Shown: positions 41,175-45,385 of the stretch, one piece after another
Position numbering within the stretch: position 1 is the stretch's first letter
How the letters are laid out: each line of letters begins with the position of its first letter
DNA from: Nitrosomonas eutropha
GTDB lineage: Bacteria; Pseudomonadota; Gammaproteobacteria; Burkholderiales; Nitrosomonadaceae
Length of the DNA: 64,000 nucleotides
Assembly (NCBI RefSeq): GCF_003201195.1
Contig: NZ_QICQ01000004.1
Span: 1-64,000 of the forward strand
Direction of reading: 5' to 3'
The notes under the pieces: generated by a model
Database searches by the model: none
Told to the model about the DNA's origin: nothing
The model's input: only the letters and a program-made list of their open reading frames with translations
Made by a program: the position numbers and the translations under genes

Positions 41175-41765
41175 TTACATCTCACGATGTGATGTCTGCC
41201 GGGTTTCCTGATAGGTTATGCGCCATGTAATCCATGACAGCCATACTATAGCGATTACGGCAGCCAGCCCAATCAACCAGTTGCCAAGCTGTATCTGGTC
41301 ATCAAGCAGATAGGCATTGCACAGGCGCAGCGGCGATTCAGTATACAACCACCCAACCACTCCCATCATGGGCAGCATATTGCCCAGAAAGAAAAATTGC
41401 AGAATCAAACCAGCTGGACGCCATGACAGACGTAGCGCCATGCCTGCCAGAACCAATGCGGTTAATTTAGCCAACTCCATTTTTGGGTGCAGTAATGCTT
41501 GATCAAGCACACGTGGTATCATCAGCACAGCGAGCGTAACACCTGTTATGAGTAATCCGCTGATTCCATACATATTCCAGCGAGCAATAACCTTACATAT
41601 TCGTGCCGGCATTCCTCCGGCAAGCAAGGCAGCTGCTCCCATCCAGAGTGGAAACTGCACCAACATGTGACACCACATGCTTTTTTCCATTGCATGACGT
41701 ACGCCAGGTGTGGCTATAAACAGCAGTAAGCCTATGCCTAAAACAGCTTGCCAACACTTGTTCAC
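41175..41765 (-). CDS. Multi-helix membrane protein at the end of the oxidase operon (possible CtaG-like assembly factor)
   Basis: The 196 residues have about five membrane helices. The segment HAMEKSMWCHMLVQFPLWMG (residues 24-43) places Met, His and Cys residues at a membrane face, like the Met/His motifs of CtaG-type copper-delivery proteins. The similarity is weak, so the family is not certain. The gene overlaps the SCO gene by 4 bases (ATGA) and is the last of the cbb3-type oxidase operon, which suggests a role in oxidase metal assembly. A membrane orf also follows senC in the nitrosomonad norSY-senC-orf1 cluster, a similar arrangement recalled from the literature. Confidence 0.65.
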   Translation of the reverse strand: MNKCWQAVLGIGLLLFIATPGVRHAMEKSMWCHMLVQFPLWMGAAALLAGGMPARICKVIARWNMYGISGLLITGVTLAVLMIPRVLDQALLHPKMELAKLTALVLAGMALRLSWRPAGLILQFFFLGNMLPMMGVVGWLYTESPLRLCNAYLLDDQIQLGNWLIGLAAVIAIVWLSWITWRITYQETRQTSHREM

Positions 41766-42412
41766 AACGAAGTTTCCTGTATCTGCTTGCGTGCCAGATG
41801 GCGCGCATAATCAAGTGCCAGCTGGTGCTCCTCAATATCGAATACACGCACCATGCGTCCAGCACCATCAAATACCAGCAGAGCAGCGTTGTGCTCGTAA
41901 TCGCCACGGCCATCAGGTATCACCACTACTCCAAGCTGTTGCAGCAAAGCTTGTTCCTGTTTTGCCTGTAGTACTCGAACAAAACGCCAGAGTTCTGGCC
42001 TGGCACTCAAGTTATCGGCATAAGCTCGAAGTGCAGGCGGATCGTCATGTTTGCGATCAAAGCTGATGGAAAGCAAGCGAACATTTCTCGGACGCTCGTT
42101 ACCCGCATCGTTGAGCAAGGCGGTTTGTATCTGCTGAAAAATACTACCCAATGAGGGGCATACGGCCTGGCAACGGGTGTAGATAAAGTCTGCGATCGTT
42201 ACAACATTCTCTTGACGTAACAGGGTCGGAAGATCCGTTTCAGCAAGATCCGGCCCTTCGATTTGTACAGGGGAGATTTCGACAGGATGCAAAGCGACTT
42301 CCAGACGGCGTGCGTCTTCATCAGTCCAGATCTGGAAATCATAAGTTAGCCAGGATGCTGCACTCCAGCCGAGCAAAATGATTAATACACTTGTAATTAC
42401 AGTGCGTATCAT
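41762..42412 (-). CDS. SCO1/SenC-family copper chaperone
   Basis: The 216-residue thioredoxin-fold protein is anchored by an N-terminal helix (about 3-20). The copper-binding motif C81-x3-C85 lies in FIYTRCQAVCPSLGS, and the third ligand is H174 in DYEHNAALLVFD. All three ligands are present, so it should bind copper. SCO proteins deliver copper to oxidase centres (CuA, or CuB for cbb3 enzymes) or act as thiol reductases. The position 40 bases after the cytochrome c gene points to the oxidase in this operon as the client. Confidence 0.9.
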   Translation of the reverse strand: MIRTVITSVLIILLGWSAASWLTYDFQIWTDEDARRLEVALHPVEISPVQIEGPDLAETDLPTLLRQENVVTIADFIYTRCQAVCPSLGSIFQQIQTALLNDAGNERPRNVRLLSISFDRKHDDPPALRAYADNLSARPELWRFVRVLQAKQEQALLQQLGVVVIPDGRGDYEHNAALLVFDGAGRMVRVFDIEEHQLALDYARHLARKQIQETSL

Positions 42413-42452
42413 CTCTGGTTATTAGTGCAGGTGCGCCCTTGGCAGCTTACTA

Positions 42453-43064
42453 CTAGTGATTCTTTTCACTTAGTGCCTTCAGTGCCGCCCCACCTTCAAA
42501 TGGTGTAGTGCGTCCAGCACTGGATTGCCGTTCTGTCTCGAACAGATCGGCTGAAACTGCATCTGCTTTATTACTCCAGGCGCTGCGGATGTAAGTTGCC
42601 ACCCTAGCCAGCTCCGCGTCACTTAATTGCGAGAAGGCTGGCATTAAACCCTGGTATTTTTGTCCAGCGATTTCTATTTCACCACTAACACCATGTAACA
42701 GGATATTGGCTAGAATACGTGGTTCACCCTGTACCCATTCTGAGTTGTCCAGTGGCGGGAAAACGCCTGGTACACCCAGTCCTGTGACTTGATGGCAAGC
42801 TGCACATTGTGCAGCGTACAAGGTCTTGCCATCGATAACCGTATTATCACTATCGGCTGTTTGCAGTGGTCTGGAAAGATCGGCCAATGTGCGCTGATCA
42901 CCATAGCGAGACGTCGTCAGTGGTTCTGACATAAATAAATATACCACACCGAAAATAACCATTCCCAACGTGACTAATGTTGTCGTCATCGGAATTGGGC
43001 GAATGATTTCTTTGGGGTCAATGTTTTCACGGACTTGGGCGCGATGGTCATCATTATCGGCCAT
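42453..43064 (-). CDS. Membrane-anchored monohaem cytochrome c of the cbb3-type oxidase operon
   Basis: The product has 203 residues from ATG 43064 (AAAGAGG before it); the longer frame is rejected. A cytoplasmic start (MADNDDHRAQ...) and one helix at about 27-46 resemble the anchor of CcoP. The periplasmic class I cytochrome c domain has one haem site, C87-A-A-C90-H91, and axial ligand M141 in LMPAFSQLSD. Standard CcoP has two haems, so this would be a reduced CcoP replacement or the third subunit in a two-cytochrome design. A tail of about 35 residues follows the domain. It lies 64 bases after ccoO. Confidence 0.85.
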   Translation of the reverse strand: MADNDDHRAQVRENIDPKEIIRPIPMTTTLVTLGMVIFGVVYLFMSEPLTTSRYGDQRTLADLSRPLQTADSDNTVIDGKTLYAAQCAACHQVTGLGVPGVFPPLDNSEWVQGEPRILANILLHGVSGEIEIAGQKYQGLMPAFSQLSDAELARVATYIRSAWSNKADAVSADLFETERQSSAGRTTPFEGGAALKALSEKNH

Positions 43065-43128
43065 GGAGTGTACCTCTTTGGTTGAAAAGATCATGCCTGT
43101 ATGTGGCAGAGCAATTTATTGATGTCAT

Positions 43129-43737
43129 TTAGCGATCCTTTTTACCTGCGTTTTGTGGATCCGGCGGTAATATCGGGTAACTTCGGTCGAGGGATCGTAA
43201 ATATTTCACCAGATCTACCGCTTCCGGGCGAGCAACTACTACTTTCCCTGATGGTACAAATTTTGGTGGCAGCTTGACGATTATCTCGTCATCTTCGGCT
43301 TGATCTTTAACTTCAAACATATAAGGATAAGAAGGCATGGTAGAATCTGGCACATACGCACGCGGCTGATACAAATGACCTAGATGCCAGTCCATGCTTG
43401 GCTGGCGCACACCGATATTCATTAGATCTGGGCCGGTACGCATGCTGCCTAGCAAGTGTGGTTTGTCGTAATAATAGTCACCAGGCGTGGTGACCCGTCC
43501 CCAGCCGCGATCAAAATCCGGAGCGAAGCTGCGATCGCGTGGCTGTTGGGTATGGCAATACAGACAACCGTTGGCGACGTAAATTTCTCGCCCACGTAAT
43601 TCTGCGCTGGTGTAAGGTTTGAGTCCTTCAGGCGGCTGAATATCACGCACCTGGATATATGGAAGCACCACCAGTGCTGCGACGGCAATTCCAAAAGTCG
43701 TTATTGCGCCAGCAGTCAGCTTAGCTTCATTTTCCAT
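43129..43737 (-). CDS. ccoO: cbb3-type cytochrome c oxidase subunit II (CcoO)
   Basis: The 202-residue protein has an N-terminal helix at about 9-28. Monohaem site C58-L-Y-C61-H62 lies in NGCLYCHTQQ, and axial ligand M134 is in DSTMPSYPYM. The stretches RTGPDLMNIGVRQPSMDWHL and LYQPRAYVPDSTMPSYP are the recognised CcoO signature. It passes electrons to subunit I. Its start overlaps the end of the subunit I gene by 11 bases, as is common for ccoNO. Confidence 0.9.
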   Translation of the reverse strand: MENEAKLTAGAITTFGIAVAALVVLPYIQVRDIQPPEGLKPYTSAELRGREIYVANGCLYCHTQQPRDRSFAPDFDRGWGRVTTPGDYYYDKPHLLGSMRTGPDLMNIGVRQPSMDWHLGHLYQPRAYVPDSTMPSYPYMFEVKDQAEDDEIIVKLPPKFVPSGKVVVARPEAVDLVKYLRSLDRSYPILPPDPQNAGKKDR

Positions 43738-45385
43738 GCATCATCTCCAGTTTCATTTTCTCCGGTGCAAACAGTGCTTCCCCGGTACGATTGGGGCCGA
43801 ATCGCAGTATCATGACCAGTAAATGTCCGACAAAAATCACATGGCTAAGCCACATCAGCCCACCTCCTACACTGCGCCATTCCAGGTACGGAATAGTTAG
43901 TCGTACTGAATCCATAAATTCACGTGTGGTATCGAGCATTGCAAGGCCCTGTAGCCAGCCGCCCCAAGACAGGAAAACGAAATAGATTAGGATACCGATG
44001 CTGGCTAGCCAAAAATGCAGCGAAATTAGTTTTGGGTAGGGCCATTCCCAATGTAGTACACGCGGCATCATAAAGTAGATCGCACCGAAGAGTACCATTG
44101 AGACGAAACCGTAGGCGCCAAGGTGAGCATGAGCTACTGTGAAGTGTGTAAAGTGCGCAACTTGTTGAATGCTGCGTAAGGCCTCAAATGACCCTTGCAC
44201 CGATGACAGCAGATACATAAAGCCGCCAAACATCATGAATCGTAGCGTTGGCGAATAAAGTGCCAGACGCATTCTCCCCCACATGGTTCCTGCCATATTG
44301 ACTGAGAATGCAACTACGGGGATGATCATCATCATACTCTGCACGATGGATAGCGTAATCAGCCATCCAGGTACCGGCCCGCCAACTAGATGGTGCCCGC
44401 CCACCTGTGCGTAGAAAAACGCCAGTGTCCAGAAACCCAACAATGAAAGATTATAGGAACGCACTCGCCGCCCGATTGTTTTGGGTAGAAAATAGTAGAT
44501 GGCGCCCAAGGCGATCGGAGTAAACCAGAGGCCTAGAACGTTGTGCCCATACCACCAGTTGGTCATCGCCTGTTGTACGCCAAAATGAACACCCGGAAGT
44601 TTTCCGACGGTAAACAGCAGCGAAATCCATAATAAGGCAGCGATGTGATACCACACGCTTACATAGAGTTCATGTGCTTTGCGGTGGAACAATGTATAAA
44701 ATACCGAACCAATGATACAAACCATACCTGCCTGAATGAACAAGCCGATCTGCCATGGGATTTCCAGGTATTCCATACCATCGCTCCAGCCGGAACCGAT
44801 TGCGCCAATGGAGCTGGCAATTCCGATGTTGATAAATGTCCCCCCCAGCATGACCCACATTGGTCCTTTCAGTGGTGTGCGCAACAAGCGTGGCAGCAGC
44901 CAGATGATAATGCCCAGTCCAACGTTGGTGATCCAGCCATAAAGTACTGCGATCAGGTGTACTGTTCGCATGCGCCCAAAGGTCATCCAAGCCTCGGATA
45001 CCAGAAAGTCTGGCCAGTGTAATTTCAGTGATGAAATGAGACCAGCTGTCGCGCCCAGTATCAGCCACATACAGCCAAAGGAAATGAACATAAAGACCGG
45101 GAAGGCAGATGAACGGTCAGCAGCGATGCGATCCTTGATCTCATCCGGGTCTTCGGCTTGCGGCTCACTGCCGTGGGAAGCGGTTATCGCCTCTTGAAGG
45201 CGTTTTGCAGCCTGATCATCCAGAGCTGGATCATCTGCTTTGCCAATTTCTCCAGGTGCAAAAATTGTGGCGGCCGCTCGTGGGTTTTCAAACAGCAATC
45301 CTTTACGCAGCGACCAGATGAATACAAGCAAACCAATGAGTGATAATAAAAAGGCTGCCAGCAAGCTCAGTAATGCACTATCCAT
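43727..45385 (-). CDS. ccoN: cbb3-type oxidase subunit I with N-terminal CcoS-like extension
   Basis: The 552 residues are about 80 longer than usual CcoN. Residues 1-55 (SLIGLLVFIWSLRKGLLFEN, then AAATIFAPGEIGKADDP) look like the small assembly protein CcoS; a charged linker reaches residue 92. The haem-copper core follows: H143 and H421 for low-spin haem b, H281, H331 and H332 for CuB, and H419 for haem b3. Y325 stands six residues before the HH pair, the place of the cross-linked tyrosine of cbb3 oxidases, so O2 reduction rather than NO reduction is expected. It pumps protons as a high-affinity oxidase. GAGAGAG precedes the ATG. No ccoG, ccoH or ccoI is nearby. Confidence 0.88.
   Translation of the reverse strand: MDSALLSLLAAFLLSLIGLLVFIWSLRKGLLFENPRAAATIFAPGEIGKADDPALDDQAAKRLQEAITASHGSEPQAEDPDEIKDRIAADRSSAFPVFMFISFGCMWLILGATAGLISSLKLHWPDFLVSEAWMTFGRMRTVHLIAVLYGWITNVGLGIIIWLLPRLLRTPLKGPMWVMLGGTFINIGIASSIGAIGSGWSDGMEYLEIPWQIGLFIQAGMVCIIGSVFYTLFHRKAHELYVSVWYHIAALLWISLLFTVGKLPGVHFGVQQAMTNWWYGHNVLGLWFTPIALGAIYYFLPKTIGRRVRSYNLSLLGFWTLAFFYAQVGGHHLVGGPVPGWLITLSIVQSMMMIIPVVAFSVNMAGTMWGRMRLALYSPTLRFMMFGGFMYLLSSVQGSFEALRSIQQVAHFTHFTVAHAHLGAYGFVSMVLFGAIYFMMPRVLHWEWPYPKLISLHFWLASIGILIYFVFLSWGGWLQGLAMLDTTREFMDSVRLTIPYLEWRSVGGGLMWLSHVIFVGHLLVMILRFGPNRTGEALFAPEKMKLEMMHGK

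Follow-up and report, generated by a model that had tools for sequence, protein, structure and literature searches.

The window, a stretch of 64,000 nucleotides from Nitrosomonas eutropha (NZ_QICQ01000004.1, positions 1 to 64,000), carries on its minus strand a five-gene operon coding for a C-type haem-copper oxidase (Table 1). The gene for subunit I is overlapped at its 3' end by a ccoO-like gene, and genes for a cytochrome c, a copper chaperone and a membrane protein follow. The order of the five genes, the one for the membrane protein included, was identical in all 73 loci for which at least 2.4 kb of downstream sequence was available. The single-haem cytochrome c scored 38 bits against the ccoP model, below its cut-off. 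The features of a standard cbb3 operon, a two-haem CcoP and ccoGHIS, were not found here, the partner cytochrome having one CxxCH, and the genome of the window gave no match to CcoG, FixH or a separate CcoS. NCBI annotates the protein of an Azoarcus relative simply as 'cbb3-type cytochrome c oxidase subunit I', and the genes next to it as subunit II, cytochrome c, SCO family protein and hypothetical protein.

Table 1. Genes of the oxidase operon in the window and domains of its subunit I
Feature	Position	Strand	Remarks
Subunit I, whole reading frame with N-terminal extension	43727-45385	minus	552 aa, ATG start
CcoS-like domain, residues 1-56	45218..45385	minus	membrane helix about 2-28, conserved tail with AxxIF..xE
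Linker, residues 57-91	45113..45217	minus	sequence and length variable
CcoN core, residues 92-552 and stop	43727..45112	minus	C-type haem-copper oxidase subunit I
ccoO-like subunit II	43129..43737	minus	FixO, E 3.1e-36; one CxxCH (CLYCH)
Single-haem cytochrome c in the place of two-haem CcoP	42453..43094	minus	Cytochrom_C, E 1.1e-14; one CAACH
Sco1/SenC copper chaperone	41762..42412	minus	SCO1-SenC, E 5.1e-8
Conserved membrane protein of the operon	41175..41765	minus	Caa3_CtaG, E 0.11 (insignificant likeness)

The Pfam COX1 domain is confined to residues 97-508 of subunit I (E 9.5e-79), and about 91 residues precede the haem-copper core, which agrees with the roughly 92 extra residues noticed in the sequence-only reading of this DNA. 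Against the ccoN model TIGR00780 the core scored 233 bits and did not reach the cut-off of 583. The fold predicted for the protein (mean pLDDT 82.6, pTM 0.88) was best matched by the CcoN chains 8smr_E (Z 40.6), 3mk7_D (40.4) and 9g6b_A (40.1), followed by the CcoN chains 6xkw_n (39.7) and 9g83_t (39.4). H207 and Y251 of 3mk7_A, which are cross-linked, correspond in the alignment to H281 and Y325, the tyrosine standing at the position known for this bond. Together with H331, H332, H419 and H421, both residues are invariant in an alignment of 46 sequences (A3). The CcoN fold, the metal ligands and the conserved tyrosine position that mark a C-type subunit I are all present, and the core is a divergent C-type (cbb3) subunit I and not a standard CcoN equivalog. 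An identity as NO reductase was also considered, Nitrosomonas having an sNOR as well, and was excluded by the FixO-like subunit II and by the presence of the CuB histidines and the tyrosine. The protein is 93-94% identical to proteins in N. eutropha records.

Conservation of the extension and its likeness to CcoS

The extension contains the motif FIWSLRKGLLFEN..AAATIF exactly as it had been quoted from the sequence, and the membrane helix that had been placed in its first 55 residues corresponds to helix 2-28 of the predicted model, within a conserved part that spans residues 1-56. A block pLDDT of 68-77 for residues 1-30 gives this helix middling confidence. The model continues with a short helix at 35-39, a helix at 57-70 and TM1 from residue 80. 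Structural alignment to the solved CcoN chains starts at model residue 84-91, and the part before it remains unaligned, such stretches being barely tested according to the warning of the alignment tool itself.

The frame of the extension was open in 97 of the 97 loci read, and the fusion is conserved; 80 of these loci are the best 80 of 161 relatives, some genomes were reached twice (e.g. L002, L053), and 12 loci of the order survey and one of the phylum sample had been selected because the match reached the extension. Alignment A3 comprises 46 of 52 extensions, five rows lacking an ATG start and the C-terminally cut L117 having been left out. The mean column identity among these 46 relatives was 0.63 for residues 1-56, 0.24 for residues 57-79, 0.46 for residues 80-91 and 0.70 for the core. 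Up to P53 there are eleven invariant positions; S15, W24, S25, L30 and G48 reach 90% conservation, and R86 and D90 of the linker are invariant as well. Between the window and N. eutropha Nm24, dN/dS was 0.017/0.68 for residues 2-56, 0.084/1.145 for the linker and 0.03/0.688 for the core. Because the frame is open at every locus, residues 1-56 are conserved nearly as well as the core and nonsynonymous change in them is so rare, the extension is neither a mis-called start nor a chance lengthening of the reading frame, but a selected domain on a tether.

The likeness of this domain to CcoS, a small maturation protein of cbb3 oxidases that is normally separate, could not be settled from the window alone, since a FixS search of its own genome gave no match at E≤0.001; the CcoS models match only the extension in this genome, and weakly. 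The profile match anticipated for residues 1-60 was obtained with TIGR00847 (19.6 bits, E 0.00053), although below the curated cut-off. Residues 1-92 scored 18.0 bits (E 0.0017), positions 11-30 being aligned on positions 11-30 of the model, and PF03597 (FixS) gave E 0.061. Overall, the extension of the window reached 13.5-19.6 bits and lies below the curated cut-offs of both models. Fused relatives, in turn, pass the cut-offs of both, which supports the proposal of a CcoS-CcoN fusion: the TIGR00847 cut-off of 28.35 was passed by two of ten relatives, taken from the 20 diverse extensions described below and scanned singly (30.8 and 28.6), with the other eight below it, and the FixS cut-off of 23.1 was exceeded by four of ten (24.2 to 26.4), a fifth tying with it. 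The extension of C. metallidurans CH34 is over the FixS cut-off at 24.1.

The likeness is specific in two libraries. When 20 diverse extensions were searched with hmmscan at a limit of E≤1, 17 of them matched ccoS of NCBIfam (best E 1.7e-7) and 3 the next family; in Pfam, 18 matched FixS (best 5.8e-6) and 2 the next family. Set A1 holds 20 extensions chosen for diversity from 52 non-redundant ones, and set A2 ten separate CcoS. An hhalign comparison of the 52 extensions with 29 separate CcoS, kept from 36 rows found by pattern of which the other seven were plainly different reading frames, gave an ungapped alignment with a probability of 85.6 and a score of 31.5, and a second set gave 87.6. 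In 60 shuffles each, the controls reached at most 17.2 when all columns were shuffled, 25.4 within segments and 30.5 for the tail alone, the last of which nears the real score, and CcoN TM1 as a control scored 16.1. All 97 extensions scored at least 3.8 bits against a local CcoS profile (median 9.0, best 21.9), compared with a mean of -0.1 for shuffled sequences (967 scored of 970; 95% below 3.6, best 12.0). Many extensions do not score above the best shuffle and are thus unconvincing as CcoS when taken singly, but the case for the family as a whole is strong.

The CcoS-like motif pointed out in the sequence-only reading stood in part: the helix, F22, mostly W24, A38 and I41 of the A-x-x-I segment, and the acidic tail are retained as in CcoS, whereas its hallmark G-Q-F is mostly replaced, often by G-L-F/L. 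The P-x-S of the CcoS helix is mostly lost, and E46, P53 and F42 are invariant in the extensions.

The weakness of most single matches, together with the general resemblance of one-helix proteins to each other, would fit a chance likeness, in which an unrelated membrane anchor was added to CcoN; the CcoN of R. capsulatus and that of another alphaproteobacterium also start well before the shared core (6xkw_n from 57, 9g83_t from 65). Such an origin is nevertheless very improbable in view of the specificity in two libraries, the members over curated cut-offs, the shuffle controls, the gene order and the neighbour group with a separate ccoS described below, and the failure of the extension profile to find any CcoN chain in the PDB at E≤10. 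A reciprocal search of 40 genomes with this profile was weak: 10 of the genomes had a match at E≤1, 11 matches in all. Only the best of them (G517, E 0.068) was shown to be ccoS, and the others did not coincide with the position of ccoS wherever that position was listed for the genome.

CcmD, a small haem-exporter protein, is the only NCBIfam match for two alphaproteobacterial extensions (12.8 and 15.5 bits) and was considered as a source of the extension in place of CcoS. This descent is more improbable still and was rejected: CcmD is absent among the families listed for the 20 extensions, FixS outranks it in Pfam for both alphaproteobacterial sequences, and gene order points to ccoS.

Gene order, phylogeny and spread of the fused form

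The nearest unfused relatives seen, from G143 and G189, are 42-44% identical and have a separate CcoS-like gene directly upstream of ccoN. The products of these upstream genes scored 24.7 and 20.4 bits against FixS, and 11.3 and 13.6 against the extension profile, scores reached by none of 1000 shuffles each; the score of the G189 protein against the local CcoS profile was reached by one of 1000. The neighbourhood of ccoS and ccoN is common: in a set of 30 high-scoring ccoS loci from the order, chosen without regard to ccoN, 15 are followed on their own strand by ccoN at a distance of no more than 900 bases. This count is less biased than the other counts of upstream ccoS, and the flank covered was only 1.5 kb. 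An upstream ccoS was present in six of six loci L133-L138, by selection, the match having run on upstream of ccoN, and at least one of their source genomes (G272) recurs among the 30. By pattern search, an upstream CcoS was found in 8 of 24 unfused loci, two of the 24 being the same gene. Moreover, ccoSNOQP and ccoSNOQPGH are used as names of gene clusters in the consulted parts of PMC2907700 and PMC10653808.

In a tree of 29 rows built from the core only, the fused proteins all lie on the same side of a branch (95/94), beside the G143/G189 pair (98/93). A second tree of 28 rows included the alphaproteobacterial members, nine far rows with no upstream ccoS by pattern and five fused rows having been dropped and four plasmid rows added, and it gave 94/93 for the fused branch, beside the same pair at 100/98. 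The value of 94/93 is just under the star of the tool, the root is a midpoint root and long branches were flagged. Since the nearest unfused relatives have ccoS upstream and the fused proteins share one side of a branch, a single fusion at the base of the fused clade is the simplest history. As judged from sequence comparison, the extension is therefore very probably a CcoS (FixS) domain that became part of CcoN when two adjacent genes, with ccoS upstream, fused in frame in a single ancestral event. L041, L043-L045, L047-L050 and L052 belong to a separate far ccoN-like branch, 29-32% identical, in which an upstream ccoS was not found by pattern, and L042 and L046 (G142, G269) have reading frames of about 980-1000 aa in which CcoN, CcoO and additional cytochrome c domains are combined into one protein.

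The fused form was found in 4 of 120 Nitrosomonadaceae genomes, in 15 of 300 genomes of the order (counted where the match took in the extension with no stop), in 4 of 398 genomes of the phylum sample (E≤1e-75) and in all 80 loci read from the best 80 of 161 relatives. The fusion is no invention of the nitrosomonads: besides being widespread in Burkholderiales, it occurs in Azoarcus and in two genera of Alphaproteobacteria, and on the tree the copies of Nitrosomonas fall inside Comamonadaceae. The fused oxidase has spread partly by gene transfer. Nine plasmid records gave a match and five of them were read; the extension was present on these plasmids and megaplasmids of Azoarcus KH32C, C. metallidurans CH34, Indioceanicola and two Paracoccus, and it is probable in three Paraburkholderia plasmid records and a second one of C. 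metallidurans. The two Paracoccus loci (L179, L182) lie on plasmids typed as conjugative and have a shorter linker, with R-Q-F replacing G-L-F.

The oxidase of the N. eutropha group is nested inside Comamonadaceae (100/99 with Comamonas and a Burkholderiaceae MAG), and the G+C content of the operon (41175-45385, 0.48-0.50) is slightly above that of its flanks (0.41-0.48); the operon was therefore probably gained by transfer. This suggests Comamonadaceae as the source from which the N. eutropha group of ammonia oxidisers obtained the C-type oxidase together with its helper. The part of PMC6967387 consulted attributes a high-affinity cbb3 (C-type) oxidase to N. eutropha and to Nitrosomonas sp. 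GH22, whereas N. europaea is without one.

Assembly genes and the possible role of the fused domain

A separate ccoS over the cut-off was present in 11 of 11 genomes that have a second ccoN beside the fused oxidase and in none of the five without one, and CcoG is split in the same way (11 of 11 and none of five). The five genomes in which the fused oxidase is the only C-type oxidase are four Nitrosomonas and G362. FixH was found in none of these five; it was found in all five others tested (four with a fused oxidase, and G143), one match being below the cut-off. A copper ATPase is present in all five fused-only genomes, its class (CcoI or CopA) not being distinguished. Across the 120 Nitrosomonadaceae genomes, TIGR00847 gave three matches at E≤0.001, every one of them a fused extension. 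Because the four fused-only Nitrosomonas genomes are closely related to one another, the comparison is far from 16 independent cases, and G116 is only 80% complete. A different operon of the ccoN-ccoO type was seen in another Nitrosomonas genome (L172, G099:C21; 91% complete), in which no ccoS over the cut-off and no match to ccoG were found. The number of copper-ATPase matches over the cut-off varies, with six in the genome of the window (contigs C1, C11 and C34) compared with one each in G007, G011, G116 and G362.

The basic residues after the helix of the extension would place the tail and the linker in the cytoplasm, where the first helix of CcoN begins, and the fused domain could there perform the step of CcoS in cis. 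Copper would probably reach the site through the Sco protein of the operon and a general copper ATPase, because CcoG and CcoH were not found where the fused oxidase is the only oxidase of this type. An inactive complex forms in R. capsulatus in the absence of CcoS, as cited in the section of PMC8267372 consulted, and about 20% of activity was regained with added copper in a ccoS mutant of C. jejuni (same section). In R. capsulatus, cbb3 assembly is reported to proceed with an engineered fusion of CcoI and SenC (PMC8475189, consulted in part), so tethering as such is workable.

The chances stand about even that a lineage of C-type oxidases carries CcoS as a permanent part of the catalytic subunit, present once per enzyme, acting in cis and under no need to leave. 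Together with Sco, this would make the five genes a high-affinity oxidase cassette that largely matures itself, is passed from one bacterium to another, on plasmids too, and functions with neither CcoG nor CcoH nor a separate CcoS. In other cbb3 enzymes, CcoQ, CcoM and CcoH are small structural subunits, and it is possible, though on balance unlikely, that the extension is CcoS by descent but now serves as a fixed structural helix and has lost its part in maturation. Permanent covalent attachment would suit a subunit, and the G-Q-F core is mostly changed while E46, P53 and F42 became invariant; against such a change of role, the positions shared with CcoS (F22, mostly W24 and the A-x-x-I segment) were kept, and a separate ccoS is missing where the fused oxidase is the only one.

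CcoS may serve haem, copper or both. A natural fusion would fix its client, its ratio and the membrane side of its action, and the fused protein offers a natural experiment on the function of the helper, since the factor can be removed from it, exchanged for another or resolved in a structure. The literature searched, which covered few subscription papers, gave no account of a CcoS-CcoN fusion, and none appears in the consulted parts of PMC6967387, PMC7558416, PMC5697931, PMC8267372, PMC6769254, PMC8475189, PMC2907700 and PMC10653808. Such proteins may already be annotated with both domains in domain databases, because some extensions pass the cut-off of Pfam.

Comparison with known systems

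With the CcoN of known cbb3 oxidases (3mk7, 8smr_E, 6xkw_n), the protein of the window has in common the fold (Z about 40), the histidine ligands and the tyrosine position. It differs in being only 28-30% identical and below the TIGR00780 cut-off, and in the addition of the putative CcoS domain at its N-terminus. The extension resembles CcoS/FixS (TIGR00847, PF03597) in its single N-terminal helix with F-x-W at the helix end and basic residues, the A-x-x-I segment, the acidic end, the ungapped profile alignment and the gene order beside ccoN. CcoS is encoded beside cbb3 genes, and the extension was found joined to ccoN in the 97 loci read. In contrast to CcoS, it is not a separate protein, G-Q-F is mostly replaced, a linker and CcoN follow it, and the copy in the window is below the cut-offs of both models, some fused relatives being above them. 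Compared with standard cbb3 operons, the fused operon carries Sco, lacks ccoG, ccoH, ccoI and ccoQ, and has a one-haem partner cytochrome. The artificial CcoI-SenC fusion, in the part of PMC8475189 consulted, is likewise a tethered assembly factor that is reported to work for a cbb3 oxidase; it is, however, engineered and joins two copper-delivery proteins instead of a factor to the oxidase. Natural fusions within cbb3 operons have been modelled by NCBI as PRK14485 (subunit I/II) and PRK14486 (subunit II/cytochrome c). Those proteins join structural subunits, whereas the fusion in the window would join an assembly factor to its client.
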